From Hyphomicrobium sp. NDB2Meth4 (GTDB taxonomy: Bacteria; Pseudomonadota; Alphaproteobacteria; Rhizobiales; Hyphomicrobiaceae): DNA of 56,151 nucleotides. Below are positions 15,283 through 40,358 of this stretch, in pieces; position 1 is the stretch's first letter, and every line of letters starts with the position of its first letter. The notes under the pieces were generated by a model. The model ran no database searches. It saw only the letters and a program-made list of their open reading frames with translations, and was not told the origin of the DNA. Location: positions 1 to 56,151 of the forward strand of contig NZ_FPEJ01000008.1 in assembly GCF_900117445.1 (NCBI RefSeq), given 5' to 3'. The position numbers were made by a program, and so were the translations under genes.

Positions 15283-15741
15283 CTAGCAGTTGACGAGCAT
15301 CGTTGCGACGCGCGTGAATGGCGTCATCAGGCGGACCTGGACGTCGCCGGGCAGTCCCACGCGCTCAATGGCCATCACCATGCACCGGAGCCAGGCGTCC
15401 TTCGCCTCCGCGTTGATATCGACGTGCTCGTGCATCTCGCGCACATTCGAATGTCCCCACTTTTGCGCATAGAGCCTGGGACCGCCGAGAAAGCCGGATA
15501 GAAAGTTCAGTTGTTCGATGCGCGAATGGGCGACCCCATGTCCGCGCAGATGCAGGACGTGCAGCGCCCGGCCCTCGGGTTCGAACTCGACGATGTCGTA
15601 GAACGTCTCGACCAGATTGCGCAGGCCTTCCTGGCCACCGACGAGCTCGTAGAGCGATGCCTCGCGCAAAGCCGGACCCGGCGCCTCAGCGGTTGCCGCA
15701 ACGGGCATATGGGCATCTGAAACTTTTGCAGCACCTGACAT
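15283..15741 (-). CDS. Group II truncated haemoglobin
   Basis: A 152-residue 2-on-2 globin. Group II features are visible: YELVGGQEGLRNLVETFYDI with a Tyr at the B10-like position, FLSGFLGGPRLYAQKWGHSN, the proximal-His region VREMHEHVDI, and a Trp in the G helix (AWLRCMVMAI). It has an extra 30-residue N-terminal tail of low complexity. Group II globins typically handle O2, NO or peroxide. An AGGAGG ribosome site precedes ATG 15741. It lies between the two-component operon and the glnT/gmaS array; no redox partner is adjacent. Confidence 0.87.
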   Translation of the reverse strand: MSGAAKVSDAHMPVAATAEAPGPALREASLYELVGGQEGLRNLVETFYDIVEFEPEGRALHVLHLRGHGVAHSRIEQLNFLSGFLGGPRLYAQKWGHSNVREMHEHVDINAEAKDAWLRCMVMAIERVGLPGDVQVRLMTPFTRVATMLVNC

Positions 15742-15810: not shown

Positions 15811-15848
15811 AAAAAAAAGCGCGCGGCGTTCGAGGCACCGCGCGCTTC
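15811..15848 (-). terminator. Terminator of the glx-glnT array
   Basis: Read on the minus strand, GCGCGCGG (15845-15838) pairs with CCGCGCGC (15826-15819), followed by a run of eight T (complement of 15811-15818). It sits 17 bp beyond the stop of the glnT/gmaS-like gene and marks the 3' end of the minus-strand array. Confidence 0.85.
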
Positions 15849-15864: not shown

Positions 15865-17193
15865 TTAGATGTCGAGTGTGTTCTCGCGCTCCCACTCCGT
15901 GAAGTGCGACGCGAATTGGTTCCACTCGCCAGTCTTCAGTTTGATGTAGGCGGCGGAGAACTCCTCGCCGAGGGCGCTCTTGAGAGAGGCGTCCTTGTCG
16001 AAGTTGCGGATGGCGTCGAGAAGGTTGAGCGGCAGCTTCGGAGCATCGGTCACTGTATGTCCGAGCTGGTACATGTCGATATCGTAGCGACGGCCCGGGT
16101 GGGCATTGCTTTCGATACCGTCGAGGCCGGCTGCAATGATGACGGCCTGGAGGAGGTACGGGTTAGCAGCGCCGTCTGGCAGGCGAAGCTCGAAGCGACC
16201 CTTGCCCGGCACACGGACCATGTGCGTGCGGTTGTTGCCGGTCCAGGTAACGGTGTTGGGCGCCCACGTCGCGCCGGAAACCGTGCGCGGCGCGTTGATG
16301 CGCTTGTAGGAGTTGACAGTAGGATTGGTGATCGCGGACAGCGCTTCGGCGTGCTTCATGATACCGCCGAGGAACTTGTAGCCCTGTTGAGACAGGCCCA
16401 TTTCGTCCGTGCCGTCCAAGAAGGCGTTGGAGGTGCCGCTCGTGTCCCAGACAGAAATGTGTGCGTGACAGCCGTTTCCGGTAAGGCCTGGGAACGGCTT
16501 CGGCATGAAGGTCGCGCGCAGCCCGTGCTTCTCGGCGACAGTCCTTGCCATGTACTTGAAGAACGAGTGGCGGTCGGCGGTGACCAGCGCGTCGTCGAAG
16601 CTCCAGTTCATCTCGAACTGGCCGTTGGCATCCTCGTGGTCGTTCTGGTAGGCACCCCAACCCAGCTCCTGCATGTAATCGCACATCTCGGCGATCACAT
16701 CGTAGCGGCGCATCAAAGCTTGCTGGTCGTAACAAGGCTTCGCTGCAGTGTCCTTTTGATCGGAGATCGCCGTTCCGTCGGGCAACGTCAGGAAGAATTC
16801 GCACTCTACGCCGGTCTTCACGCGCAGCCCGAGCGCCGCGGCCCTCGCAACGAGGTGCTTGAGGACCACGCGAGGCGCCTGAGCGACGAGCTTGTCCTCC
16901 ATCACGCAGTCGGCCGGCAGCCAGGCAACTTCCTTCTTCCACGGAAGCTGGATCATGCCGGCTGGATCCGGCATGCCGAACATGTCCGGGTGCGCCGGTG
17001 TCATGTCCAGCCATGTGGCGAAGCCGGCAAAGCCGGCTCCGTCTTTCTGCATCTCTGCGATTGCTGCTGCGGGAACGAGCTTGGCTCGCTGCCCACCAAA
17101 CAGGTCGGTGAACGAGATCATGAAATAGCGGATGCCACGATCTTTCGCGACTTGCGCTAGATCGATCTTCACCTCGTGTGAATCGTGGGCCAT
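15865..17193 (-). CDS. glnT: Type III glutamine synthetase / gamma-glutamylmethylamide synthetase family
   Basis: A 442-residue ATP-dependent ligase of the GlnT/GmaS branch of the glutamine synthetase superfamily. YFMISFTDLFGGQRAKLVPA is the beta-grasp start. GVECEFF carries the metal-binding Glu, YQNDHEDANGQFEMNW follows at about 183-196, then GNGCHAHISVW and NRTHMVRVP in the ATP/glutamate site. GlnT makes glutamine from ammonia; GmaS uses methylamine to give gamma-glutamylmethylamide. Residues 187-194 match the block targeted by published gmaS PCR primers, but the C-terminus (FTEWERENTLDI) is not the one I recall for GmaS. Substrate is undecided. ATG 17193 fits family length; a GTG at 17271 is weaker. 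Confidence 0.85.
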   Translation of the reverse strand: MAHDSHEVKIDLAQVAKDRGIRYFMISFTDLFGGQRAKLVPAAAIAEMQKDGAGFAGFATWLDMTPAHPDMFGMPDPAGMIQLPWKKEVAWLPADCVMEDKLVAQAPRVVLKHLVARAAALGLRVKTGVECEFFLTLPDGTAISDQKDTAAKPCYDQQALMRRYDVIAEMCDYMQELGWGAYQNDHEDANGQFEMNWSFDDALVTADRHSFFKYMARTVAEKHGLRATFMPKPFPGLTGNGCHAHISVWDTSGTSNAFLDGTDEMGLSQQGYKFLGGIMKHAEALSAITNPTVNSYKRINAPRTVSGATWAPNTVTWTGNNRTHMVRVPGKGRFELRLPDGAANPYLLQAVIIAAGLDGIESNAHPGRRYDIDMYQLGHTVTDAPKLPLNLLDAIRNFDKDASLKSALGEEFSAAYIKLKTGEWNQFASHFTEWERENTLDI

Positions 17194-17287
17194 CGGTGTT
17201 TTCCCAAGTGTGTCGGTTACGTTGACGCTCTTCGCTGCCGCCGGCCTGCTAAATCTTCCGAAGAATTTCACAGCCGCCCGCCCAATT

Positions 17288-18616
17288 TTAGAAGTTGCCC
17301 TGACCAGGAATCCAGCCCGTTCCCGCCAGAGGCACCCGCGCCATGGCGGCGGCCTCGATCGTGAGCGCGCAGAGATCTTCTGGGGTCAGATTGTGCACGT
17401 GATTGTGGCCGCAGGCACGTGCAATGGTCTGTGCCTCGAGCGTCATCACTTTGAGGTAGTTGGCTAGGCGCCGGCCGGCGAGAACCGGGTCGAGACGCCG
17501 CGACAGCTCGGGGTCCTGGGTGGTGATGCCAGCCGGATCCCTGCCCTCGTGCCAGTCGTCATAGGCGCCGGCCGTCGTGTGCAGCTTGTTGTACTCAGAT
17601 TCCAGCGCCGGATCGTTATCGCCGAGGGCGATGAGAGCCGCGGTGCCGACCGACACAGCGTCAGCGCCGAGTGCCAGCGCCTTGGCAACGTCCGCGCCGT
17701 TGCGGATGCCGCCCGACACGATCAGCTGCACCTTGCGATGCATGCCGAGGTCCTGCAGCGCCTGCACGGCCGGACGGATGCATGCGAGGGTCGGCTGGCC
17801 GACGTGCTCGATGAACACTTCCTGCGTGGCGGCGGTGCCGCCCTGCATGCCGTCGACGACCACGGCGTCAGCGCCGGCCTTCACGGCCAGGGCAACGTCG
17901 TAGTAAGGACGCGCGCCGCCGACCTTGATGTAGATGGGCTTCTCCCAGTCGGTGATCTCGCGCAGCTCGAGGATCTTGATCTCGAGATCGTCGGGACCGG
18001 TCCAGTCCGGGTGACGGCAGGCCGAGCGCTGGTCGATGCCCTTCGGCAGCGTGCGCATCTCGGCGACGCGATCGGAGATCTTCTGGCCGAGCAGCATGCC
18101 GCCGCCGCCGGGCTTCGCACCCTGGCCGACCACCACCTCGATGGCGTCCGCTTTACGCAGATCGTCCGGGTTCATGCCGTAGCGCGAGGGCAGATACTGA
18201 TAAACCAGCGTCTGCGACTGGCCGCGCTCTTCCGGCGTCATGCCGCCGTCGCCCGTCGTCGTCGACGTGCCGGCGATGGTGGCGCCGCGGCCGAGTGCTT
18301 CCTTCGCGTTGGCTGACAGCGAGCCGAAGCTCATGCCGGCGATCGTGATCGGAATTTTCAGCTCGATCGGCTTCTTCGCAAAGCGCGTGCCGATCACCAC
18401 GTTGGTCGAGCACTTCTCGCGATAGCCTTCCAGCGGATAGCGGGACATCGACGCGCCGAGGAACAGCAGGTCGTCGAAGTGCGGAACCTTGCGCTTGGCG
18501 CCGCCGCCACGAATGTCATAGATGCCGGTCGTAGCGGCACGGCGGATTTCCGACAGCGCATAGTCATCGAATGCGGCCGCCTTGCGCGGCGTCGTGGGAG
18601 GGTTGTGGTAGCTCAT
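17288..18616 (-). CDS. glxD: GlxD/MgsC: FMN-binding glutamate-synthase-like subunit
   Basis: A 442-residue homologue of the FMN-binding (alpha/beta barrel) domain of glutamate synthase. FGSLSANAKEALGRGATIAG, STTTGDGGMTPEER, VVVGQGAKPGGGGMLLGQKI and VSGGIRNGADVAKALALGAD line the FMN site. The GltB [3Fe-4S] motif (C-x5-C-x4-C after the MIALG element) should come next, but here LIALGDNDPALE and YDDWHEGRDPAGITTQDPEL contain no cysteine. This is the third piece of the split GltB-like enzyme called GlxBCD in rhizobia and MgsABC (N-methylglutamate synthase) in methylotrophs. The start overlaps the stop of glxC (TGATG). Confidence 0.88.
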   Translation of the reverse strand: MSYHNPPTTPRKAAAFDDYALSEIRRAATTGIYDIRGGGAKRKVPHFDDLLFLGASMSRYPLEGYREKCSTNVVIGTRFAKKPIELKIPITIAGMSFGSLSANAKEALGRGATIAGTSTTTGDGGMTPEERGQSQTLVYQYLPSRYGMNPDDLRKADAIEVVVGQGAKPGGGGMLLGQKISDRVAEMRTLPKGIDQRSACRHPDWTGPDDLEIKILELREITDWEKPIYIKVGGARPYYDVALAVKAGADAVVVDGMQGGTAATQEVFIEHVGQPTLACIRPAVQALQDLGMHRKVQLIVSGGIRNGADVAKALALGADAVSVGTAALIALGDNDPALESEYNKLHTTAGAYDDWHEGRDPAGITTQDPELSRRLDPVLAGRRLANYLKVMTLEAQTIARACGHNHVHNLTPEDLCALTIEAAAMARVPLAGTGWIPGQGNF

Positions 18617-19302
18617 CAGTAAGCGTCCGCGTTATCGATGTTGAAGTTATAGAGCTTGCGGGCCGAGCCGTAGCGACGGAAATCCTTCGGCTTCACGCCG
18701 TTGAGACCCGAGCGCTTCAGGATGCCGTCGATGATCTCGAGATGCTCATCGCGCATCTCTTTCTCGATGCAGTCCGCACCAAGGCTCTTCACCGAGCCGC
18801 GCACGAACAGGCGTGCCTCGTAGATCGAGTCACCGAGCGCATCGCCTGCATCGCCGAACACCACGAGGTTTCCGGTCTGCGCCATGAACGCCGACATATG
18901 GCCGATGTTGCCTTTGACGACGATGTCGATGCCCTTCATCGAGATGCCGCAGCGCGACGACGCGTTGCCCTCGACAACCAGCATCCCCCCGCGCCCCGTG
19001 GCACCCGCGTACTGGCTGACGTCGCCCTTAACGACGACTTTGCCCGACATCATGTTCTCGGCAGCGCCCGGTCCGGCGGAGCCGTGTACCGTGACATTAG
19101 CCTGCTTGTTCATGCCGGCCACGTAGTAGCCGACGCTACCCTTGATATCGATGTTGAGCGGGGCATCCACGCCGACAGCAACCGCATGCCGGCCCTTCGG
19201 ATTGAGAATTTCCCACTGCGTTTCGTTGGTGCCGGCGTTCTGCTTGTGCAGAAGCTCGTTCATTTCACGCAGTGAAGTAGAAGCAAGATCGATGGTGCGC
19301 AT
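18616..19302 (-). CDS. glxC: GlxC/MgsB: GXGXG domain subunit
   Basis: A 228-residue protein made only of the glutamate-synthase C-terminal GXGXG beta-helix domain. Repeating glycine turns are visible: DIKGSVGYYVAGMNKQANVT, VHGSAGPGAAENMMSGKVVV, DVSQYAGATGRGGMLVVEGN and VKGNIGHMSAFMAQTGNLVV. In GltB this domain is structural and holds the other two domains together; here it is a separate subunit. It is translationally coupled to glxD downstream and 8 bp after glxB. It works with GlxB and GlxD in the same complex. Confidence 0.88.
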   Translation of the reverse strand: MRTIDLASTSLREMNELLHKQNAGTNETQWEILNPKGRHAVAVGVDAPLNIDIKGSVGYYVAGMNKQANVTVHGSAGPGAAENMMSGKVVVKGDVSQYAGATGRGGMLVVEGNASSRCGISMKGIDIVVKGNIGHMSAFMAQTGNLVVFGDAGDALGDSIYEARLFVRGSVKSLGADCIEKEMRDEHLEIIDGILKRSGLNGVKPKDFRRYGSARKLYNFNIDNADAY

Positions 19303-19310
19303 GGCAGCTC

Positions 19311-20207
19311 TTAGCGCTCCCAGAAATAGACGGTTGCGGGTTCAGGCTCCCAAATGCGTGCACCATCGACGCCGGGCAGGCCGGCAAGTGCACGATATTC
19401 GGAACCAAAGGCGACGTATTGATCGGTTTCGGCCATGACGGCGGGCTTGCACGCGATGGGATCGCGCACGACCGCAAAGCCGTTCTTGGTGCCGACGACA
19501 AACGTGAAGAAACCATCGAGATCATCGAGGCTCTTCTGCAGCGCTTCGCCGAGGTTCATTCCCTGCTTGATGCGCCAGGAAATGTACGCAGCTGCAACTT
19601 CCGTGTCGTTCTCCGTCTCGAACGTCATGCCGTCGCGGATCAGTTCGCGACGCACGTTCGGATGGTTCGACAGCGACCCGTTGTGCACCAGGCACTGGTC
19701 GGGGCCCGTGGAAAACGGATGCGCGCCCATCGTTGTCACGGCCGACTCCGTCGCCATGCGCGTGTGCCCGATGGCGTGCGAGCCCTGCATCTTGGCAAGC
19801 TCGAACTGGCTCGCGACCTCCGTCGGCCAACCGACTTCCTTGAAGATCTCGATCGATTCTCCGGTGCTCATGATGCGCAGCTTCGGATGCCCGGTGCGCA
19901 GAGCTTCGCGCGTGGCCTGGGCCTTGTCGGCCGGCACGCTGAGAACCGCATGCGTTGCCTTGCGCTCGAGGCTGACCTCGGCACCTATGGCTTTCGACAG
20001 GTCCGCGGTGAGGCCGGCGAAATCCGCATCCGGATTCGGCGACTGCAGAGTGATCTTCGCCTTGCCTTGCTGCGGAGCTCCATAGACGGCGAAGCCGGCA
20101 GAGTCCGGTCCGCGCTCGCACATGGTCGCAAGCATGGTTGAAGTGAGCTCGCCGAGGCGAGGCTCAAGTTTGGCGTCCTTTATGAACAGGCCAACAATGC
20201 CGCACAT
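19311..20207 (-). CDS. glxB: GlxB/MgsA: class II glutamine amidotransferase subunit
   Basis: A 298-residue Ntn-type class II amidotransferase domain. Translation from ATG 20207 gives MCGIVGLF, which exposes Cys2 as the N-terminal nucleophile; the open frame extends further upstream but would bury this cysteine. Supporting motifs are MCERGPDSAGFAVYG, GHTRMATESAVTTMGAHPF, LVHNGSLSNH and FETENDTEVAAAYI. It matches the amidotransferase part of GltB split off as its own gene, first of the glxBCD/mgsABC set. In N-methylglutamate synthase it would release or channel the amine from the gamma-glutamyl substrate (inference from the family). Confidence 0.9.
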   Translation of the reverse strand: MCGIVGLFIKDAKLEPRLGELTSTMLATMCERGPDSAGFAVYGAPQQGKAKITLQSPNPDADFAGLTADLSKAIGAEVSLERKATHAVLSVPADKAQATREALRTGHPKLRIMSTGESIEIFKEVGWPTEVASQFELAKMQGSHAIGHTRMATESAVTTMGAHPFSTGPDQCLVHNGSLSNHPNVRRELIRDGMTFETENDTEVAAAYISWRIKQGMNLGEALQKSLDDLDGFFTFVVGTKNGFAVVRDPIACKPAVMAETDQYVAFGSEYRALAGLPGVDGARIWEPEPATVYFWER

Positions 20208-20295
20208 CTTGTTTCTAATCCCCAATGCTTCAGTGCTGAGTTTGAGCTTAGCAGGCACTTTCCTGCAGTCAACTGGTATGAAGAGATTTTTCCTA

Positions 20296-20577
20296 TCAGG
20301 CAACTTGCTGCCCGTGGCGCCAAACCTCGTAACGGATGCGCGCAATGCGATAAGCATCCGGAATCGACAGCGCCCACACGAACAAACCAAGGGCGGAGCG
20401 GCCGATAAACGAAGTTTCGGGCCCAGTCGCGTGCCAGCACAGCAGCGCCAGCAACAGCGAGAAGAACGCAAATCCAAGTCCGCGCATTTGCGCGCCGACG
20501 GCAACGTGGCCGGCACCTGGAGCGAGGATGGCGAGGGCAAGCACGATGTACGGGTTGATCGGAGGCTTTGCTGTCAT
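20296..20577 (-). CDS. Small hypothetical membrane protein in the permease-glx array
   Basis: A 93-residue protein with hydrophobic segments PYIVLALAILAPGAGHVAVG, LGFAFFSLLLALLCWHA and a weaker third (GRSALGLFVWALSIPDAY). The basic tail IARIRYEVWRHGQQVA suggests a cytoplasmic C-terminus. The first segment has the GAGH pattern of small TM2-like proteins, but I do not assign a family. It is coupled to the upstream 223-residue gene by a 4-bp overlap and lies 88 bp before glxB, so it is probably expressed with the array. Function unknown. Confidence 0.72.
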   Translation of the reverse strand: MTAKPPINPYIVLALAILAPGAGHVAVGAQMRGLGFAFFSLLLALLCWHATGPETSFIGRSALGLFVWALSIPDAYRIARIRYEVWRHGQQVA

Positions 20578-21245
20578 GCCGCGTGCGCCTGACCCATCGC
20601 ACCCGCAACCCTGCGCATGCTGTGTAGCTGATCGAGAACCATCGCGAATTCATCGCGTGCGATTTGCGCCTTCTCGAACACCGACTGGCGAAGCAGCAGA
20701 TGATCGCCACGCTTGCCCTCGGCGCCCTGGCGCAAAATCCGCATGCCGCGCTCGGTGATCGCGATCTCTTTCACGCGCGGATCCTGGAGAATCCCGCTCA
20801 GCACCGGGGCCAGTTCTGCGAGCAGCGGCTCGGCCTCTTCGTCGCCGCGGATGAGCACCTCGGCAGGAAAGTCGGTGGGAGTATCGAGCCGATACTCGAA
20901 CCGCGAGGAAAGCGAATAGAACTCGGTGCCGCAATGGCGCACCAGGATAGATAGTCCCGGCAGCCCTGGATTGCGGTCAAGCAGCGTCGTCGACAGCCAC
21001 AGCTGCGGCAGACGGCGCATGGTCAGCGTGTCGAGCACGAGGTCGACTTTGACGCCGCGCCCGCGATGCGAGCCCGAAAGCTGCGGGAAGCCATCGGCCC
21101 CGTGCGTCAGCTCCGAGCGATCAAGCACTGCGGCGCATTCATCGAGCAAACCGCGACGCGCAGCCATTGCGGCGCGATGATCGCGGACTGCGATGTAGGA
21201 AACGGTCACGGCGCCAGCGGCAGCCACGAAAAGCGTGAGGGACAT
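20574..21245 (-). CDS. Hypothetical membrane-anchored protein in the permease-glx array
   Basis: A 223-residue protein with one N-terminal membrane anchor (LTLFVAAAGAVTVSYIAV). A soluble part follows with GRGVKVDLVLDTLTMRRLPQ, LSILVRHCGTEFYSLSSRFE and a helical C-terminus (EKAQIARDEFAMVLDQLHSM). I recognise no catalytic motif and no named family. The composition (balanced charge, coherent secondary-structure pattern, good codon bias) supports a real gene. Its stop overlaps the start of the 93-residue gene, and it lies 120 bp after the permease. Its position between an amine permease and glxBCD suggests a role in the same pathway, which is inference only. Confidence 0.74.
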   Translation of the reverse strand: MSLTLFVAAAGAVTVSYIAVRDHRAAMAARRGLLDECAAVLDRSELTHGADGFPQLSGSHRGRGVKVDLVLDTLTMRRLPQLWLSTTLLDRNPGLPGLSILVRHCGTEFYSLSSRFEYRLDTPTDFPAEVLIRGDEEAEPLLAELAPVLSGILQDPRVKEIAITERGMRILRQGAEGKRGDHLLLRQSVFEKAQIARDEFAMVLDQLHSMRRVAGAMGQAHAA

Positions 21246-21289
21246 GAGGGGGCACCTGACGCGTTGGAGTTGTTGTTTCGCGGGATGGG

Positions 21290-21354
21290 CGATCCCCGGG
21301 TAGCCGTCCGGGGATCGCGGGGCCTGCCGCGGGGAGAAGGGTCCCGCGACAGGC
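21290..21354. other. Two adjacent strong hairpins between permease and downstream genes
   Basis: CGATCCCCGG (21290-21299) pairs perfectly with CCGGGGATCG (21308-21317) around an 8-base loop. GCCTGCCGCGGG (21322-21333) pairs with CCCGCGACAGGC (21343-21354) with one mismatch. Neither is followed by a T run on the minus strand, so they are not orthodox terminators. They may stabilise the permease mRNA or attenuate the downstream genes. Confidence 0.7.
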
Positions 21355-21365
21355 TAACGGTTAGC

Positions 21366-22751
21366 TCAGTGCCCGACCGGACGCGGCCAGGGCATCGTGA
21401 ACTGCGCACCGCGTTTGACGAACTTGTAGCGGTGGCCGGCGAACCAGACCGAAGCGATGATGTAGAACACCATCATGGCGACGAGCTGGGTGCCGTACCC
21501 GAGGAACACCGCGAAGTACGTCGTGGCGCAAAGAGCGAGCAGCACGAAGGCCGGCAGCGGATGGAACGGATGCACGTAGCCGCGCTTGATCGTGCCGAGC
21601 GGCCACATCTTCCGGAACATCAGTACGTTGAAGGCCATGAACGTGTACTCGAGCAGACCCGACAGGATCGAGAAGGTGATGACCTGATCGAGCGGCGCGA
21701 AGTATGCGAACACCAGAGCCACCGGCACGAGGAACACGATCGAGCGGAACGGTGTGCGGTACTTCGGATGCACGGCGCCGAACACCTGCGGCAGATACCG
21801 GTCGCGACCCATGGAGAACCATGCGCGCGAGGCATCGTTGATGCAGCCGTTCGCCGACGCGAGCGTCGAGAAGATGGTGCCGACGAACAACAGCACCATC
21901 AGCGGGGTCGAGCCGGTGAGGCGGGCGGCGTCGAACAGCGGCGTCACTGCCTGACCAAGGTATTCCCAAGGCATCAGGCCGGAGCAGATGTACCAGGTCA
22001 TCGTCGCCGCGATCAGCAGCGTGATGATACCGGTCATCGTGCCGAGCGGCAGGGCGCGCGCGGGAGATCGCACTTCTTCGGCGGCCTGCGTCGTTCCCTC
22101 GATGCCGAGGTAGTACCACATGCCGAAGTGCATGGCCGCCAAGACGCCCAGCCAGCCGTAAGGCAGACCGTTGAGCAACTCGTGCGGCTTCAGCACGTTG
22201 TCCGTCCAGGGGCTTACCGCCGCGAACAGGATGAGGATCGCGACGAAAGCGATGGCGGTGATGACGAGGTTGAACGTCAGCGTGGCGTAGACGCCGCGGT
22301 AGTTCAGGAACGCCAGGAACATGATGGTCAGCACGATAAACGGCTTATCGTGCGTGTCGGCGAACCCTGCCATGCCTCCCACGGTTTGCACGAGGTAGCC
22401 GAGCGTGATCGCGTTGGCTGCTTCGAGCATCGTGTAGGCAAAGACGAGGAACAGGCCGACGTTGAACGCCATCAGCGGCCCGACGATGTGCTTGGCCTGC
22501 GCGTACTGACCACCGGCGGCGGCGACCGTTGAGGTCACCTCCGAGTCGATCATTGCGACACAGGTGTAGAGCATGCCCGCCGCCCAGCACGCGATGAGAG
22601 CAGCGAGTGCACCACCCTTGCCGACGGCGAAGTTCCAACCCATATACTCGCCGACGAGCACGATACCGACGCCGAGGGCCCATACGTGACCAGGGCCGAG
22701 GACGCGGAGCAGCGAGACCTTCTCGCCGTGAACTGCAGTATACTGGGTCAC
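21366..22751 (-). CDS. APC-superfamily amino acid/amine permease
   Basis: A 461-residue inner-membrane transporter with about 12 helices. The N-terminal signature GPGHVWALGVGIVLVGEYMG with WNFAVGKGG resembles the ethanolamine-permease-like branch of the APC superfamily. MWYYLGIEGTTQAAEEVRSP is the conserved loop after helix 6, and ASANGCINDASRAWFSMGRD that after helix 8. Substrate cannot be read off; given its place upstream of glxBCD-glnT/gmaS, methylamine, ethanolamine or an amino acid is plausible. Its start overlaps the stop of the preceding 64-residue membrane protein by 4 bp, so these are coupled. Confidence 0.88.
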   Translation of the reverse strand: MTQYTAVHGEKVSLLRVLGPGHVWALGVGIVLVGEYMGWNFAVGKGGALAALIACWAAGMLYTCVAMIDSEVTSTVAAAGGQYAQAKHIVGPLMAFNVGLFLVFAYTMLEAANAITLGYLVQTVGGMAGFADTHDKPFIVLTIMFLAFLNYRGVYATLTFNLVITAIAFVAILILFAAVSPWTDNVLKPHELLNGLPYGWLGVLAAMHFGMWYYLGIEGTTQAAEEVRSPARALPLGTMTGIITLLIAATMTWYICSGLMPWEYLGQAVTPLFDAARLTGSTPLMVLLFVGTIFSTLASANGCINDASRAWFSMGRDRYLPQVFGAVHPKYRTPFRSIVFLVPVALVFAYFAPLDQVITFSILSGLLEYTFMAFNVLMFRKMWPLGTIKRGYVHPFHPLPAFVLLALCATTYFAVFLGYGTQLVAMMVFYIIASVWFAGHRYKFVKRGAQFTMPWPRPVGH

Positions 22752-22942
22752 AGGTGGCCTCCCTGGTGCGGCGGGTCGATGACGAGGCTGTCTTCGATTT
22801 CACCTTCCTTCGAGGAAAGCAGCGTCTCCTCCGAGTGGGCGCGGTTGGTACGGATCATGTCGGTGAGCATCCAGAGGCCGAGCAAGGCCGAGATGCCCCA
22901 GGCTGCGTATTCCAGCAGCTGGAAGTTGTTCAGATTTTCCAT
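22748..22942 (-). CDS. 64-residue single-helix membrane protein coupled to the permease
   Basis: A very small protein with one hydrophobic helix (EYAAWGISALLGLWMLTDMI), then an acidic and polar cytoplasmic tail (TLLSSKEGEIEDSLVIDPPH). The last codons overlap the permease start (ATGA), which argues strongly for a real, stoichiometrically expressed partner. It is the third of three consecutive small membrane-protein genes. I recognise no family. An accessory or stabilising subunit of the transporter is the simplest hypothesis. Confidence 0.76.
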   Translation of the reverse strand: MENLNNFQLLEYAAWGISALLGLWMLTDMIRTNRAHSEETLLSSKEGEIEDSLVIDPPHQGGHL

Positions 22943-22954
22943 TGGAGCACTCCG

Positions 22955-23335
22955 TCAGCGGTCGAACCGCTCAGCGATGACGTCCTTGTATTCCTTCGCC
23001 GACCAGCGGAAGACGAGCCAGAAGTAGGCAATCACCACGAATGCGGTGATCAGCAGTGCCGGCAAGCTGAAGGAATAGTCGAAGCGGGTGGCGATCAGCT
23101 CGTGGGCTGTCTGCGGCGTGTAGCCGAGCTTTTCCCACTGCTGCGCCATCGTCGCGTTCTGCCCTAGATCTGCCCACGAAGCGTCAGGCAGATTGAGGGT
23201 GGTCTTGCCGCCGCCTGCGAGGCCGAAGTAGACCGGCAGGAACAGGGCAGCTAGCACGAGCACCAGCAGAAACAACGAGTCGACGAACTGCCCGAACTTT
23301 GACTGTTGGGGCGGTTGATAAGGCGTCTTGGCCAT
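22955..23335 (-). CDS. 126-residue two-helix membrane protein upstream of the permease
   Basis: A protein with two transmembrane helices: FVDSLFLLVLVLAALFLPVY near the N-terminus and LPALLITAFVVIAYFWLVF near residue 100. They are separated by a roughly 55-residue loop (NLPDASWADLGQNATMAQQW) and followed by a basic tail. A strong GAGGAGGAA ribosome site precedes ATG 23335. It lies 12 bp before the 64-residue gene and 10 bp after the 97-residue gene. No family is recognised; the context fits an accessory subunit of the permease or a membrane complex with it. Confidence 0.78.
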   Translation of the reverse strand: MAKTPYQPPQQSKFGQFVDSLFLLVLVLAALFLPVYFGLAGGGKTTLNLPDASWADLGQNATMAQQWEKLGYTPQTAHELIATRFDYSFSLPALLITAFVVIAYFWLVFRWSAKEYKDVIAERFDR

Positions 23336-23345
23336 TGTTTCCTCC

Positions 23346-23639
23346 TCAGCCTTTCTTGCCGCGAAGCAAATCGAGGTAGTGGAGGTCGAGGCCGTAGATG
23401 TGCTCCTTGTCCTCTCCGTAGTGCTTCAGCATCGCGAAAATCGATGCCGAGTTGAACAGCAGCACCACGCCGCCCGCGAACGCGAGTGCGTAGACCACTT
23501 CCGGCGAGCCGGCGTTAGGTACGACCTTCCAGAATACGAAGGCATACGTTGCCCAGAGAACGGCGACGGCTAATACTGCCCATCGCCGGTCTCCCGCGAA
23601 CATTCGATGTACGCGTGCGTCTGTATTGCTCTTTTCCAT
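23346..23639 (-). CDS. 97-residue two-helix membrane protein, first gene of the array
   Basis: A small protein with hydrophobic segments WAVLAVAVLWATYAFVFW and VVYALAFAGGVVLLFNSASI, ending in a charged tail (HYLDLLRGKKG). I chose ATG 23639 because AAGGGG lies at the right distance upstream; an in-frame start at 23663 is possible. It is the promoter-proximal gene of the minus-strand array. No named family is recognised. Together with the next two genes it forms an unusual trio of tiny membrane proteins expressed ahead of an APC permease. Confidence 0.76.
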   Translation of the reverse strand: MEKSNTDARVHRMFAGDRRWAVLAVAVLWATYAFVFWKVVPNAGSPEVVYALAFAGGVVLLFNSASIFAMLKHYGEDKEHIYGLDLHYLDLLRGKKG

Positions 23640-23672
23640 GAGCACCCCTTGGCTAGTTTCCACCCGAGTTAT

Positions 23673-23727
23673 GGTTGCCTATGAGGCAACCGTTTTTTAT
23701 ATCAGGAAAATTCTGCGACGGGTTGCC
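23673..23727. promoter_or_regulatory. GGTTGCC repeat operator candidate in the divergent spacer
   Basis: GGTTGCC at 23673-23679 and its exact complement GGCAACC at 23685-23691 form a perfect inverted repeat around TATGA. A third copy (GGTTGCC) lies at 23721-23727 in direct orientation. The site sits just upstream of the first gene of the permease-glx array and on the side of the XRE-cupin regulator. Because a TTTTTT run follows the inverted repeat on the plus strand, a plus-strand terminator reading is also possible. Confidence 0.45.
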
Positions 23728-23861
23728 GCAAGTTGTCAAGGCATTTGAGTGCTGATTTACCGAGCATTTCGAATAGCAAGTCGAAAAAATGTGCAAAGTG
23801 CTGCCCTGATGGGCGGTTGAACCTGCGGAAAATCGCTTGCATCCTAAGAACGTGATTGGCC

Positions 23862-24200
23862 ATGTTTACAGCGTCTTTTTGGGGCCGCTCAGAGTACGGA
23901 TCGATCGATGCCTCTCGCCTTGTTAAGTACGCGCTCGCGAAGGATCACCCGGAGGATCCGCACTTCCGCTGGACGCCTGAGTTCAAGACTTCCTACGGCG
24001 TCGGCATCATCGGAGCGGGCGGCAATTGGCTAGCCACCGCCTACTATCTCGCCACGCGGCATCACCGACATCGCAGCTTTCGGTAAGGGCTGGCTCGCCG
24101 GTGGCAACACCGCGCGCAACACGACGATCATCCGAGACAACTCACGCCGGAAGGCGTGTGCTTCGACGCCGAGGAGTTCGCCGATCTTCCATCGCTCAGA
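23862..24200 (+). pseudogene. Decayed 5' end of a sarcosine oxidase / N-methylglutamate dehydrogenase beta-subunit gene
   Basis: The first frame gives [20 protein letters not shown] and [11 protein letters not shown], the FAD-binding start of SoxB/MgdA-type proteins. After a frameshift near 24056-24061 the next frame reads [20 protein letters not shown] and TTIIRDN, exactly the continuation expected in that family. A second shift near 24140-24147 gives [14 protein letters not shown], the following family segment. The similarity then ends and the remaining roughly 300 codons are missing. At least two frameshifts plus the truncation show that it is a relic. It is divergent from the permease-glx array, as an mgd/sox operon could be. 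Confidence 0.8.
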
Positions 24201-24378
24201 CATCGATTGCCAAGATGTCCGCAATCCTCACTCGGGCGGATATCGGGGGTAGAACCGTTTTCCACTTGCTAGTGGACAGTGCAGCCGCCTTATACTTCTG
24301 CAATTGTCTCCTTGATGCCGCGGCCGAGTTCGGCGGCCGCATCGCTGGCCTTGATGTTTTGCAGAAGTTTGAAGACGT

Positions 24379-25185
24379 ATGAAATCGACAAAAACGCGCC
24401 GCCCGCCTTCCGTTAAGGCCCGCATCGCCGAAAGCAACTCAGACGCCCTCAGCGAGCCTTTGGGTACCGTGGTGGCCGATAACGACTCAAATCCCGATGC
24501 CATCGCTAAGCCTGCGGCAGGTCGCGTGTCGCGGCAGATCCCGACGCGCAAGTCCACGCCGGGCGAGGATGATCAGGATCCGCACGCTCTGCATGGTGCG
24601 CGCGACAACATGCTCGAAGTTGCGATCGGTCGCGAGGTCCGCGCATTCCGCAACAAGCTTGGCATCACCGCGTCCGACCTGGCGCGCGCCGCTGACCTCT
24701 CCCTCGGCATGCTGTCGAAGATCGAGAACGGCGTCACCAGCGCTTCGCTGACGACGTTGCAACGTCTGTCGAAGGCGCTCGGCGTTCCGGTCACTTCTCT
24801 TTTTCGCCGCTTCGAGGAGCGCCGCGATGCCGTCTTCGTTTCGAGCGGCCAGGGTCTGCTCATCGAGCGTCGCGGCACTCGTGCCGGTCACCAGTATCAG
24901 CTCCTCGGACACACCGGCGGCCTGTCCGGCAGTGTGGTCGTCGAGCCTTACATGATCACGCTCACCGAGGAATCGGACGTCTTCCCGCTCTTCCAGCATG
25001 CTGGCCATGAGCTGATCTATCTGCTCGAGGGCGAGGTCGTATATCGCCACGCCGACAAGCTCTATCCGATGAAGCCTGGCGATAGCCTGTTCTTCGATGC
25101 GGACGCGCCGCACGGCCCCGAGGAACTGGTCAAGCTGCCGATCCGATTTCTATCGGTCATCAGCTACTCTCGTGAGCTTCCATAA
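24379..25185 (+). CDS. XRE-family transcriptional regulator with cupin sensor domain
   Basis: A 268-residue regulator. A polar N-terminal extension of about 75 residues is followed by an HTH_3 domain (about 80-135: REVRAFRNKLGITASDLARA, LSLGMLSKIENGVTSASLTT) and a C-terminal cupin_2 domain (about 180-260: HAGHELIYLLEGEVVYRHAD, MKPGDSLFFDADAPHGPEEL). Such proteins usually sense a small ligand or metal in the cupin and regulate an adjacent amine or amino-acid operon. Its location across the relic from the array makes it the likely regulator of permease-glx-glnT/gmaS (inference). The long N-terminal extension is unusual; an internal start is possible. Confidence 0.88.
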   Translation: MKSTKTRRPPSVKARIAESNSDALSEPLGTVVADNDSNPDAIAKPAAGRVSRQIPTRKSTPGEDDQDPHALHGARDNMLEVAIGREVRAFRNKLGITASDLARAADLSLGMLSKIENGVTSASLTTLQRLSKALGVPVTSLFRRFEERRDAVFVSSGQGLLIERRGTRAGHQYQLLGHTGGLSGSVVVEPYMITLTEESDVFPLFQHAGHELIYLLEGEVVYRHADKLYPMKPGDSLFFDADAPHGPEELVKLPIRFLSVISYSRELP

Positions 25186-25266: not shown

Positions 25267-26004
25267 ATGCTGCCGCGCGTCGTCATCTTCCAGCATGCAG
25301 ATTCATGCCATGCGGGCACCCTCGCCGGCCATCTGCGCGTGGATGGGATCGCGCCCGCTATCGTGAAGCTTGATCGCGGCGAGCCGCTCCCAGACCTCGA
25401 CCAGTTCGACATCCTGATGGTGATGGGCGGCCCAATGAATGTTTGGGACGAAGACGCCTATCCCTGGCTGAAACACGAAAAGGCAGCCATCCGCCGCTGG
25501 GTCGTCGAGCAAGACAAGCCCTTCCTCGGCGTCTGCCTTGGCCATCAGTTACTTGCCGACTCGCTGGGCGGCCAAGTGGGGCCGGCGACGGTGGGCGAGA
25601 TCAATCTGCTTGAGATTGCGCTCAGCCCCGAGGGGCGGCGGCATCCCCTTTATGCCGGCTTCGGCGACAAAAAGCGCGGATTGCAGTGGCATGGCGCCGA
25701 GGTCAAAGCGCTGCCCGACGGATCGATCGTTCTTGCCTCGACCAGCGACTGCCCGATCGCGGCATTCGCCTACGGCTCGAGCGCCTTCGGATTGCAATAC
25801 CACGTTGAGGCGACTGACCAGTCCGTGGTGGATTGGTCTTCAGGAGTAGCCGCTCAGGAGGCGCTGAGCCGCCTGCATCCTCCGGGGTTCGTGCAGACGC
25901 TGCAATCCCGCGTGAGCGAGGGCTTTTCGGAATTGCTCGGCAATTCGCGGCGCCTCTATGACAACTTCATGCGTATCGCAGTCGAGCGTCTCGTTTACGC
26001 CTGA
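25267..26004 (+). CDS. Class I glutamine amidotransferase-like protein
   Basis: A 245-residue stand-alone GATase1 domain. The nucleophile elbow is FLGVCLGHQLLADSLGG with Cys90, and the His/Glu pair is in GLQYHVEATDQSV (His179, Glu181). The oxyanion strand is VMGGPMNVWD. No synthetase domain is attached. Relatives include GMP-synthase-like YLR126C-type proteins and gamma-glutamylamide hydrolases such as PuuD, IpuF and AtdA2. Its position next to a GlnT/GmaS-type ligase makes hydrolysis of a gamma-glutamylamide a reasonable hypothesis. Its 3' end overlaps the convergent monooxygenase gene by 10 bp. Confidence 0.85.
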   Translation: MLPRVVIFQHADSCHAGTLAGHLRVDGIAPAIVKLDRGEPLPDLDQFDILMVMGGPMNVWDEDAYPWLKHEKAAIRRWVVEQDKPFLGVCLGHQLLADSLGGQVGPATVGEINLLEIALSPEGRRHPLYAGFGDKKRGLQWHGAEVKALPDGSIVLASTSDCPIAAFAYGSSAFGLQYHVEATDQSVVDWSSGVAAQEALSRLHPPGFVQTLQSRVSEGFSELLGNSRRLYDNFMRIAVERLVYA

Positions 26005-36553: not shown

Positions 36554-39500
36554 TTAATTGCAGCCATAACCGCCCCCTGTGGGCGTGACGATGATGATGG
36601 CCTCTCCGGCTTCCAAAACGGTCTCGTCGCAGCCCGAAAGAGCTTCGATCGCCCCATCCTTCCGCCGCACGCCATTGCTGCCTGCTTCGCCGGGTTCGCC
36701 CCCCGCGACGCCGAACGGACGTACTTTGCGGTAGCCGGAAAGGATGGCGCAGTGCATACGCTTCAAAAAGCGGATGACGCGCCAAGTGCCATCGCCGCTG
36801 GTCCACTTCCCCTTGCCGCCCGAGCCGCGCCGGATCGAGAACTCCTCCAGCACCACCGGATAGCGCAGCTCCAAGATCTCCGGATCAGTCAGTCTCGTGT
36901 TCGTCATGTGCACGTGCACGGCCGCAGCACCGTCGAACCCAGGCCCGGCTGGCGCGCCTGAGCATAACGTCTCGTAGTACTGCAGCGCCTCGTCCCCGAA
37001 CGTGAGGTTGTTCATCGTTCCTTGCGAGGACCCGAGCGCGCCGAGCGCGCCGAACAGAGCATTGGTGACGATTTGGCTGGTCTCTACGTTGCCTGCCACC
37101 ACCGCCGCGGGATACGTCGGCCGCAGCATCGACCCCTCGGGGATCACGATTTCGATCGGCTTCAGGCACCCCGCATTCATCGGAATTGGCTCATCCACCA
37201 TCACGCGAAACGTGTAGAGGACGGCCGCGCGGGTCACCGGCTCGGGGGCGTTGAAGTTGTTCGCCTGCTGCGCACTGGTTCCGCTGAAGTCCACCTTTGC
37301 CGACCGAGCCGCACGATCGACCGTAATGCGCACCTCCACCGTCGCGCCTTGATCGGTCTCGACGCGAAAATGCCCGTCCTCTAGACGCGATATCAGGCGC
37401 CGAACCGCTTCCTCGGCGTTGTCCTGCACGTGGCGCATGTAGGCCTCGACCACCTCGAGGCCGAAGTGTGCAACCATGCGCCGAAGCTCCGCCTCTCCCT
37501 TGGCGTTGGCAGCAATCTGCGCTTTGAGATCTGCGATGTTTTTCTCCGGACGCCGTGCCGGATACTTGGCACCGCAAAGCAGCGCGCGCGTTTCGTCTTC
37601 GAGAAACCGCCCTTGATCGACCAGCTTGAAGTTGTCGATATAGACGCCTTCTTCCTCGATCCGCGTCGCCCGCGGCGTCATCGACCCGGGCGTCAATCCG
37701 CCGATGTCCTCGTGATGCCCGCGGCTGGCCACGTAGAACAGCACCCGCTGTCCGGCGTCATCGAACATTGGCGTCACGACAGTGATGTCGGGGAGATGCG
37801 TGCCGCCGTTATACGGCGCATTCAGCATGAAGCTGTCGCCGGGACGCATATTGCCCCTGCGCTCGCGAATGATCGTCTCAACCGAGCGATCCATCGAGCC
37901 CAGATGCACCGGCAGATGCGGAGCGTTGGCGACGAGTGCCCCCGACGCATCGAACACCGCGCAGGAGAAGTCGAGCCGCTCCTTGATGTTCACTGACTGC
38001 GCCGTATTGCGCAGCGCCTCGCCCATCTGCTCCGCGATAGCCATGAAGAGGTTGTTGAACACTTCGAGCAGCACCGGGTCGGCTTCCGAGCCTAGGCGCT
38101 CCCGCTGAGGTGGCTCCGCCCGCCGCATGACGATGTCGTTATCGGGTGTGAGCGTCAGCTTCCAGCCGGGCTCGACCACCACCGTCTGGTTCGGCTCGAT
38201 AACGAGCGCTGGCCCTGCGATATCGCACCCGCTGGCAAGCTGGTCGCGAAGAATAACCGGCGCCTCGTGCCAGCCTCCGCGCGAATAGAACTTCGTCGCG
38301 CGAGTGGCCTGCAAACTCTCACACCCTCCCTCCTTGCGGGGGAGGGCAGGGGAGGGAGAAGTTTGGGGAGAGCCGCCCCCCGTCGCCGCAACTTCCAGCG
38401 CCGCGATGACCACGTCCTTCTCCGGCGAGACGAATCCAAACCGCTGCCGATGCAACACTTCGAAGTCGCGCCGCATGAAGTGCGGCTCCGACAACGACAC
38501 AGGAAGCGCGGTGTCGGTGCCCGCGTAACGCAAATGCGCAAAGCTCTCGATGGCGATGTCGTCGTGCTCTACGCCCTCGTCGAGCAACTCCTCGGTCACC
38601 TCGCTGCCGAGCTCAAAGGCGAGGTTCTCCAGCGCATCCATGGATTCTTCGCCCAGCGGCGCTTCAATCGAGCGCTCGCGGCTGGCGCGCTGCTGTGCCA
38701 GGCCGATCCCGTACGCCGACAACAACCCCGACAGCGGATGCACCAGCACTGTTTCGATGCCGAGCGTATCGGCGATCAGGCACGCGTGCTGCCCACCCGC
38801 CGAGCCGAAGCAGTTGAGCGCGTACTCGGTAACGTCATACCCGCGCTCGACCGAGATCTTCTTGATGGCATTCGCCATGTTCTCGACGGCGATGCGGATG
38901 GCTCCGTCTGCGATCTCTTCCGGCGCGCGCCCGTCTCCCACCTTCAGCGCCAGTTCGGCAAAGGCAGCGCGCACCGCCTCGGCATCGAGCGGCTGATCGT
39001 GCGCCTCGCCGAAGATCGCCGGAAAGAATTTGGGGTCCAGCTTGCCGAGCATCACATTGGCGTCGGTCACCGTCAGCGGTCCACCGCGCCGGTACGCCAT
39101 CGGGCCGGGGTTCGCCCCGGCGCTGTCCGGCCCGACCCGAAAGCGTGTGCCGTCGTAGGAAATGATGGATCCCCCGCCGGCAGCCACCGTATGCACGCGC
39201 AGCATCGGCACCGCCAGCCGCACGCCGGCGATCTGTGTCTCGAACGAGCGCTCATATTCTCCGGCGAAATGCGCAACGTCCGTAGACGTGCCGCCCATGT
39301 CGAAGCCGATGACCTTGTCGAACCCGGCGCGCTTGGCGGTCTCCGCCATACCGACCACGCCGCCCGCAGGCCCCGATAGGATTGCATCGCGCCCGCGGAA
39401 GGTCTGCGCCGACTTCAATCCGCCCGACGACGCCATGAACAGCAGCCGCAGTTCGTCATCGTCACCGGCTTTCAGCGCTGTCGACACGCGATCGACGTAA

Positions 39501-40177
39501 CGGTTGAGCACGGGTGACAGGTAGGCGTCCGCCACCGTTGTATCCCCGCGCGGCACCAGCTTGATCAGCGGCGATACCTCGTGGCTCGCCGAAACCTGGG
39601 AAAAGCCGAGGCTCCGCGCCAGCGCCGCGGCCTGCTGCTCGTGCTCGGGAAAAGCGTAGGCGTGCATGAACACGATGGCGACCGCGTCGATGCCTTGCGA
39701 ACGCGCTTGCCGAAGCCCCACCTCGAGTGCCTCAAGATCGATAGGCCGCTCTACGGTTCCGTCCGCGCGCACCCGCTCGTCCGCCTCGATCACGCGGCTG
39801 TAGAGCATATCCGGCTTGATGATGCGCTTGGCGAAGATGTCAGGTCTGGCCTGCGTACCGATCTCGAGCTGGTCTTTCAGTCCGCGCGTGATGACGAGCA
39901 GCGTGGTGTCGCCCTTGCGCTCCAAAAGTGCGTTGGTGGCGACCGTCGTACCCATTTTCACCGTCGCGATGCGCGTCGACGGAATAGGTGCCCCGCTCGG
40001 CACCTCCAGAAAGCGGCGGATCGCTTCGAGTGCGGCGTCGTCGTAGGCGCCGGGGTTCTCGGAAAGCAACTTGCGCGCGAGCAGCCGTCCATCGGGTGCG
40101 CGTGCAACGACGTCGGTAAACGTCCCCCCGCGGTCGATGAAGAAGTGCCACTTTTCGTCGCTGAGAAGCCCTGCCAT
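36554..40177 (-). CDS. 5-oxoprolinase (fused hydantoinase A/B type)
   Basis: A 1207-residue ATP-dependent enzyme of the OPLAH/HyuAB fused family, expected to open 5-oxo-L-proline to glutamate. The HyuA half has [40 protein letters not shown] and [20 protein letters not shown]. The HyuB half starts near residue 730 with [20 protein letters not shown] and has [23 protein letters not shown] 40177 ([10 protein letters not shown]) suits the family; upstream in-frame residues do not. A short Pro/Ser segment near residue 610, absent from the family as I know it, comes from a palindromic repeat in frame (separate entry). Function could also be acetone- or hydantoin-type hydrolysis. Confidence 0.88.
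38316..38372 (-). repeat. Palindromic small repeat inserted in frame in the oxoprolinase gene
   Basis: On the plus strand the segment reads as pyrimidine-rich CCCTCCCTCCTTGCGGGGGA followed by purine-rich GGGCAGGGGAGGGAG, a GC-rich imperfect inverted repeat centred on TTGCGGG. On the coding strand it yields [16 protein letters not shown], a low-complexity linker unlike its surroundings. Dispersed palindromic elements of this look are common in intergenic regions of Rhizobiales genomes. No other copy was seen in this window. Confidence 0.6.
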
Positions 40178-40358
40178 TCGCCGCCCGCTGGAAAACCACC
40201 GCTCCCGTGAGCTATCGGGCGTTGCGGTTAGCGTCAACCGCGACCATATCCCGGCTCGCTCCGTTTTTTCCGCCAATTGCTGCGACTTTGCGTGAACTGG
40301 GTGGCGGCAGGCCGAGGCGGGGCTTCAAGTTACGGGCGAATGCCGATAAGGGTTCTGC

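Follow-up and report, generated by a model that had tools for sequence, protein, structure and literature searches.

What is the function of six genes, five of which match no Pfam or NCBIfam family above its cut-off, that stand directly ahead of the genes of a known methylamine pathway? The question is raised by Hyphomicrobium sp. NDB2Meth4, in which contig NZ_FPEJ01000008.1 (positions 1 to 56,151 of the forward strand; hereafter the window, that is, the whole stretch of 56,151 nucleotides that was analyzed, from a genome of 4.08 Mb) carries an array of ten minus-strand genes running from 23639 to 15865. The first six genes, g1-g2-g3-APC-g5-g6, include a permease of the APC superfamily, and the last four are mgsABC and gmaS of the N-methylglutamate pathway. 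We consider it probable that the six genes encode a dedicated methylamine uptake system beside the N-methylglutamate core, the substrate being assigned as methylamine because the N-methylglutamate and mau pathways, the two with which the module is found, have this compound in common. From the sequences we infer transport itself, its substrate, direction and ion coupling, the formation of a complex, and what each of the five partner proteins (g1-g3, g5 and g6) does.

A conserved and separable module of six genes

Forty loci were compared, comprising those of 13 g2-containing genomes among 60 relatives (the window included), five from 385 genomes of the class, 11 new ones from 398 genomes of the phylum, and 11 of 22 plasmid records. 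The order g1-g2-g3-APC-g5-g6 was complete in 36 of them, and the remaining four (G034, G038, G130, and G611) stop at a contig edge. Genes g1, g3, g5 and g6 travel with g2, and separate plasmid searches with the permease (E<=1e-60), g2 and g5 (both E<=1e-3) returned the identical 22 of 72,556 records, at one place in each. The module occurs in Alphaproteobacteria, in Paraburkholderia, and in G723, which belongs to another class. In three genomes (G001, G002, and G027) it follows mau genes, the distance from the end of MauA (PF02975, E 1e-54) to g1 being 2.1, 2.2 and 3.3 kb, respectively; the other mau genes there are putative and named by gene order and sequence. The six genes are a separable module that moves as a block. 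A previous sequence-only reading had treated all ten genes as one module; all ten are indeed conserved together, the full gene order being kept in five relatives and seven additional genomes of the same taxonomic order, but they are not one obligate unit, because the six-gene block sits with mau in three genomes. Two of these, G001 and G002, have two tandem permeases per one full partner set (L065:9878-12681 and L066:10167-13353, both mau-linked, the latter with an extra g1-like match between the copies). One apparent module genome, G137, was dropped as spurious, since its g2 match was weak (E 4e-4) and the surrounding sequence lacked the module.

The ratio of nonsynonymous to synonymous substitution rates (dN/dS) against two relatives was 0.02-0.31 across nine genes (g1-g3, the permease, g5, g6, mgsC, gmaS, and the regulator gene X1), including 0.13-0.31 for g1 and 0.06-0.14 for the permease, and the small open reading frames (ORFs) are therefore real genes. 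As the sequence-only reading had supposed, the window copies of g1, g2, g3, g5 and g6 have no match above the cut-offs of Pfam or NCBIfam; in seven annotated plasmid records, g5 and the other partner genes are "hypothetical" where annotated at all. A weak match of g6 to DUF6677 was detected in 11 of 11 aligned members (best E 0.0016; window copy 0.055). The lone match of g5 among solved structures (E 1.3) was discarded, and its structure predicted from a two-row alignment was unusable (mean predicted local distance difference test score, pLDDT, 37.7). The description of g1-g3 as three tiny membrane proteins holds for g1 and g2, whereas g3 stays under the hydropathy threshold; its conserved tail is SExxLxSSxEG-like. 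Their co-occurrence with the permease and the 4-nt overlap of g3 with the permease gene suggest that the small proteins may bind the permease.

Association with methylamine enzymes

By orthology, mgsABC-gmaS is the known N-methylglutamate core: both GmaS and a split MgsABC, encoded by three adjacent genes, were found. GmaS matches the solved type III ligase PDB 7cql (E 4.6e-192) and is 98% identical to the copy of the nearest named relative of this genome, a Hyphomicrobium metagenome-assembled genome, while full-length copies of mgsC compared were 78-97% identical. In S. meliloti, a locus whose annotation lists glnT and a regulator of the GlxA family contains orthologues of the core at 65-87% identity, which we take to be the rhizobial glxBCD-glnT genes; the two identities offered earlier for the core, N-methylglutamate pathway or rhizobial glx-glnT locus, both fit and are the same thing rather than alternatives. 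Compared with described N-methylglutamate operons (gmaS-mgsABC, mgdABCD) and glxBCD-glnT, the locus in the window differs in two respects: its core is coupled to the permease and the five partner genes, and its own mgdABCD has been deleted. G019 has a second, divergent mgsABC-like set (32-42%; L037:14253-19537) about 5 kb past its mgd operon.

With strong gmaS defined as E<=1e-190 (23 of the 60 relatives, the own genome counted), it was found in 12 of 13 relatives with g2 versus 11 of 47 without it (both genes 12, g2 only 1, gmaS only 11, neither 36; Fisher p = 1e-5); for g2 and mauA the corresponding numbers were 5, 8, 1 and 46 (p = 0.001), and for g2 and gmaS above the family cut-off in the 385 class genomes they were 5, 2, 64 and 314 (p = 0.0025), all of which p values overstate the association because related genomes are not independent. 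Of the two class genomes that have g2 but no gmaS, one is G130 and the other is G137, the spurious case. The co-occurrence with mgsABC and gmaS that the sequence-only reading led one to expect of the unfamiliar genes was confirmed for g2, the gene tested, and the other four accompany g2. Among the 40 loci, mgsABC-gmaS lies directly after the module on the same strand in 13, which is the layout of the window, and in 13 more, G723 among them, the fetched stretch contains gmaS, mgs or mgd in a different arrangement (26 in total); with the mau-linked loci, 29 have gmaS, mgs, mgd or mau genes as recurrent partners. Between the module and gmaS of G030 lies a pair of genes that is ABC-transporter-like by eye (binding protein and ATPase; L047:3893-6125).

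A possible route for methylamine

In the proposed route, the permease would carry the methylammonium cation inward, with g1-g3 as its small partner subunits and g5 and g6 as membrane-anchored accessory proteins that might serve assembly, gating or signalling. GmaS, using ATP, would join methylamine to glutamate to give gamma-glutamylmethylamide, which would trap the imported amine and prevent its leaking back as the free base, an idea that parallels AmtB with glutamine synthetase. MgsABC would then make N-methylglutamate, which MgdABCD would oxidize to methylene-tetrahydrofolate and glutamate; in this genome, that last step is presumably carried out by a second mgdABCD of the canonical type, on contig C4. 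The N-methylglutamate route is given as in PMC5023235, which calls the exact route unsettled. Transporter-coupled glutamylation of an amine, as suggested by the sequence-only reading, is still the best interpretation; its glutamylation half was already known, and amine transport is the half that the module would add.

Several observations weigh against such a role in methylamine uptake. The class sample is thin (g2 in 7 of 385 genomes, one of them spurious), and damaged copies exist: the permease is frameshifted in Rhizobium RCAM05350 and has one in-frame stop in G019, and in S. meliloti Ak57 the frames of g2 and g3 continue past their normal ends. The apparent natural g3-APC fusion of Ak57 was not used; since g2 in that record is likewise without its proper end, a sequencing error is likely. 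In four of the 40 loci (G614, G611, Paraburkholderia, and G038), the neighborhood of the module offers no partner beyond other methylated-amine genes or the X1 regulator, and the fetched stretch contained no queried partner gene in seven (G130 and six plasmids); gmaS lies elsewhere on three of these six plasmid replicons, as it does on that of Paraburkholderia, and three gave no GmaS-type match at E<=1e-100. G038 has g1-g2 with neither strong gmaS nor mauA, no gmaS match was found in G130 (genome 82% complete), and in G723 the mgd set shows 60 and 47% identity and the glutamine synthetase (GS) only 42%. In Pararhizobium qamdonense, a different GS-family gene lies upstream of the module (L162:3497-4849, 28% to GmaS), and another amine may be used there. 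In addition, 11 of the 23 gmaS relatives are without g2, and gmaS occurs in 210 plasmid records versus 22 for the module, most gmaS plasmids being without the permease, so that the pathway does not depend on the module. Methylamine dehydrogenase works in the periplasm (PMC5023228) and therefore requires no import of its substrate; what reconciles the mau link with import is solely that gmaS, and hence a cytoplasmic user of methylamine, is present in each of the three mau-linked genomes.

The permease and alternative functions

The permease exceeds the AA_permease gathering score (97.9 versus 24.6 bits), can be aligned to the solved amino acid transporter 5oqt from profile position 11 to 431 of 461 (E 3e-26), and has 10 membrane segments over the hydropathy threshold, where about 12 are expected in the APC superfamily. 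This above-cut-off score and near full-length alignment are what it shares with the APC amine and amino acid permeases (TIGR00908; 5oqt/6f34). It differs from them in scoring below the TIGR00908 cut-off, in being accompanied by g1-g3, g5 and g6, and in having the corresponding segments of 5oqt replaced by VGE[YF]-x-GWN and LGIEGT, both present in 12 of 12 copies inspected. Acidic residues are kept in the two segments and would suit an amine without a carboxylate.

Import of different or broader amines, such as ethanolamine, dimethylamine or short alkylamines, is unlikely. The nearest named NCBIfam model of the permease is the ethanolamine permease TIGR00908; however, the score of 173 bits is less than half of the cut-off (381.75), and this identity was rejected. 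Dmm- or tmm-like genes (these labels and TmoP-like are our own) lie near the module in eight of nine g327/g337 genomes fetched, and the GS-family gene of Pararhizobium points in the same direction. On the other hand, gmaS, mgs, mgd or mau are the recurrent partners, and neither the window nor any of the 31 other stretches tested, which surround gmaS, mgd or the mau-linked modules of the relatives, had a match to dmm- or tmm-like genes at E<=1e-10 (stretches rather than whole genomes).

Transport of an amino-acid intermediate by the module, be it N-methylglutamate, gamma-glutamylmethylamide or glutamate and whether for uptake or for overflow, is also rather improbable. Amino acids are the usual substrates of APC permeases, and the adjoining enzymes produce two such compounds as intermediates; the mau-linked copies, whose neighbors make neither intermediate, would nevertheless be left unexplained, and the nearest family is an amine permease. 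Similarly, we give little credence to a methylamine sensor or regulator (a transceptor) in place of a bulk importer. It would account for a module beside mau in three genomes despite the periplasmic dehydrogenase, and would fit the frequent vicinity of the X1 regulator and the anchored domain of g5, which has faint similarity to YbjN in 2 of 11 members (best E 0.076), but a complete permease under strong conservation argues for transport, and no signalling domain was seen in the six proteins by Pfam and NCBIfam scans.

TmoP of Methylocella silvestris (Msil_3606) is a trimethylamine N-oxide (TMAO) permease that, like the module permease, belongs to the APC superfamily and to methylated-amine loci. 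Its counterpart on plasmid pAMI6 of P. aminophilus was taken to be RS21895 (601 amino acids, beside a tmm-like gene), an assignment of our own by position, and the same plasmid carries the module permease as a separate gene, RS21950. That the window permease is TmoP and the module serves uptake of TMAO or trimethylamine is very improbable: although several genomes have tmm-, dmm- or TmoP-like genes close to the module, RS21895 has no significant similarity to the window permease (E 0.03), both kinds of permease lie close together in Paraburkholderia, G614 and G563, and long DUF1989 (Tdm-like) ORFs were found in 4 of 13 g2 genomes and none in the genome of the window, so that TMAO is not the general substrate. 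Uptake of methylamine is thus retained as the preferred function of the module.

Organization of the locus and loss of mgdABCD

The features of the locus are listed below. As the sequence-only reading described, the ten genes lie on one strand with short gaps or overlaps (largest gap 120 bp, three overlaps). The spacing is 10 bp for g1-g2, 12 bp for g2-g3, a 4-bp overlap of g3 and APC, 120 bp for APC-g5, a 4-bp overlap of g5 and g6, 85 bp for g6-mgsA, 8 bp for mgsA-mgsB, a 1-bp overlap of mgsB and mgsC, and 94 bp for mgsC-gmaS. The single terminator reported to close the array is present as well; taken alone, its fold is moderately unusual, because z is -1.75 and 11 of 200 shuffles fold equally well, and the scan that detected it gave nine terminator-like sites versus 7.2 expected from shuffles. 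A bacterial-like globin gene (15283-15741) lies on the same strand immediately beyond the terminator, and a minus-strand ORF of 1240 amino acids was noted at 36554-40276.

Features of the ten-gene array and its upstream region in the window
Feature	Positions	Strand	Basis or remark
Intrinsic terminator, 3' of gmaS	15816..15848	-	stem of 13 bp followed by a T run
gmaS, gamma-glutamylmethylamide synthetase (type III GS)	15865..17193	-	TIGR03105, 666 bits (cut-off 470)
mgsC (glxD-like), glutamate-synthase-type subunit	17288..18616	-	Glu_synthase, E 9.3e-88
mgsB (glxC-like), GXGXG subunit	18616..19302	-	GXGXG, E 4.8e-10
mgsA (glxB-like), amidotransferase subunit of N-methylglutamate synthase	19311..20210	-	GATase_6, E 4.7e-21
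g6, 93 amino acids	20296..20577	-	two predicted membrane segments
g5, 223 amino acids	20574..21245	-	one N-terminal membrane segment and a presumably soluble domain; no family
g4, APC-superfamily permease, 461 amino acids, GTG start	21366..22751	-	AA_permease
g3, 64 amino acids	22748..22942	-	hydrophobic N-terminal stretch under hydropathy threshold; 3' end overlaps APC start by 4 nt
g2, 126 amino acids	22955..23335	-	two predicted membrane segments; no family
g1, 97 amino acids, first gene of the module	23346..23639	-	two predicted membrane segments; no family
Palindrome TTGCC-N5-GGCAA, in the promoter-g1 interval	23675..23689	.	candidate; possible operator
Sigma-70-like promoter TTGACA-18-CAGAAT, 5' of g1	23710..23739	-	sequence scan
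mgdA 5' remnant, frameshifted	23907..24167	+	comparison with relatives
mgdD 3' remnant	24175..24378	+	about 4.7 kb absent between remnants relative to nearest relative
X1, helix-turn-helix and cupin (XRE-type) regulator, intact	24379..25185	+	HTH_3, 1.8e-14; Cupin_2, 3.8e-12

The scan that gave the promoter found two promoter-like sites versus 1.5 expected by chance. Upstream of g1, TTGACA was invariant and the palindrome TTGCC-N5-GGCAA was present in all six aligned intergenic regions (the window and five relatives). In a 34-locus motif test (L069, L127, L159, L160, L161 and L163 omitted), TTGACA was found in 23 loci and the palindrome within 300 bp of g1 in 10, two of them mau-linked, at an overall density of 0.041 per kb; a universal operator palindrome was therefore rejected, other short palindromes being present at other loci. 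As an operator, TTGCCT-N3-AGGCAA is suggestive only, because it occurs at two places in the own genome versus one for the reversed control.

The sequence-only reading overlooked a deletion upstream of the module. In eight relatives (G001, G002, G003, G004, G006, G019, G027, and G029) an mgdABCD operon runs divergently from g1 or mgsA, and X1 sits downstream of mgdD in relatives. The alignment with G004 covers 15865-24167 and resumes at 24175, the intervening sequence being extra in G004. MgdABCD was accordingly not found at the window locus and was found elsewhere in the genome: the only SoxD-type match lies on contig C4 as part of the second mgdABCD (L102:8153-13345), which includes a SoxG-type subunit. 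Its MgdA and MgdC are 75% and 54% identical to those of P. aminophilus and 43% and 34% identical to those of the lost type, the lost-type MgdA being about 43% identical to both the second-set and the P. aminophilus MgdA. That the mgdA remnant is frameshifted and of lower identity argues for real decay rather than an assembly error, and with the set on contig C4 the N-methylglutamate pathway is probably complete in this genome but split over two loci. Both mgd types coexist in G004 and G006. A class-I glutamine amidotransferase-like gene (25267-26004) next to X1 is kept in G003, G004 and G006. Regulators of the X1 type accompany mgs, mgd or the module in many genomes, among them G038, which is without strong gmaS; a second example is L068:945-1667.

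Relation to known systems and significance

Carriers with small or accessory membrane partners include SLC7 with 4F2hc, SSS transporters with small subunits, and TRAP transporters. The module resembles them in that partner proteins accompany a carrier, and differs in having three tiny putative partners of 64-126 amino acids that match no family. A transporter gene within a methylamine operon has been described in Pseudomonas sp. C5pp, in gmaS-mgsABC-amt (PMC8292978); the gene there is named amt, whereas an APC permease with five partner genes is found here. Amino-acid permeases are mentioned among methylamine-responsive genes, unlisted in the table of that paper (PMC5023235), and methylamine genes on an Aminobacter plasmid are reported to be induced (PMC9699525). 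In Aminobacter niigataensis MD1, the module copy occupies about 304.4-307.4 kb of plasmid OX341518.1, with g5 at 304436-305023, the permease gene at 305100-306476 and g2 at 306694-307059. On pAMI6, mgsABC-gmaS has been described (PMC4543880); the plasmid record shows that the six module genes (RS21935-RS21960) adjoin it, and they are unmentioned in the available part of that paper. The literature surveyed, including PMC13390433, PMC8235418, PMC5520151 and PMC7660913, contains no description of the six-gene module, a partial survey by which absence is unproven, and the module is apparently undescribed so far.

A wider proposal would be that the module is a six-component secondary transporter with a new APC architecture and supplies many methylotrophic or methylamine-using Proteobacteria with the high-affinity importer of methylamine that has been missing, whichever pathway they use; this is a tentative idea, and we lean slightly against it. 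In the literature surveyed, only amt is named as a methylamine transporter for the N-methylglutamate pathway (PMC8292978). The module, tied to two unrelated methylamine pathways, would provide a concrete importer candidate in soil, rhizobial and Paracoccus-type strains and may be a possible marker of methylamine use beyond gmaS, and it perhaps represents an APC carrier with dedicated small subunits.

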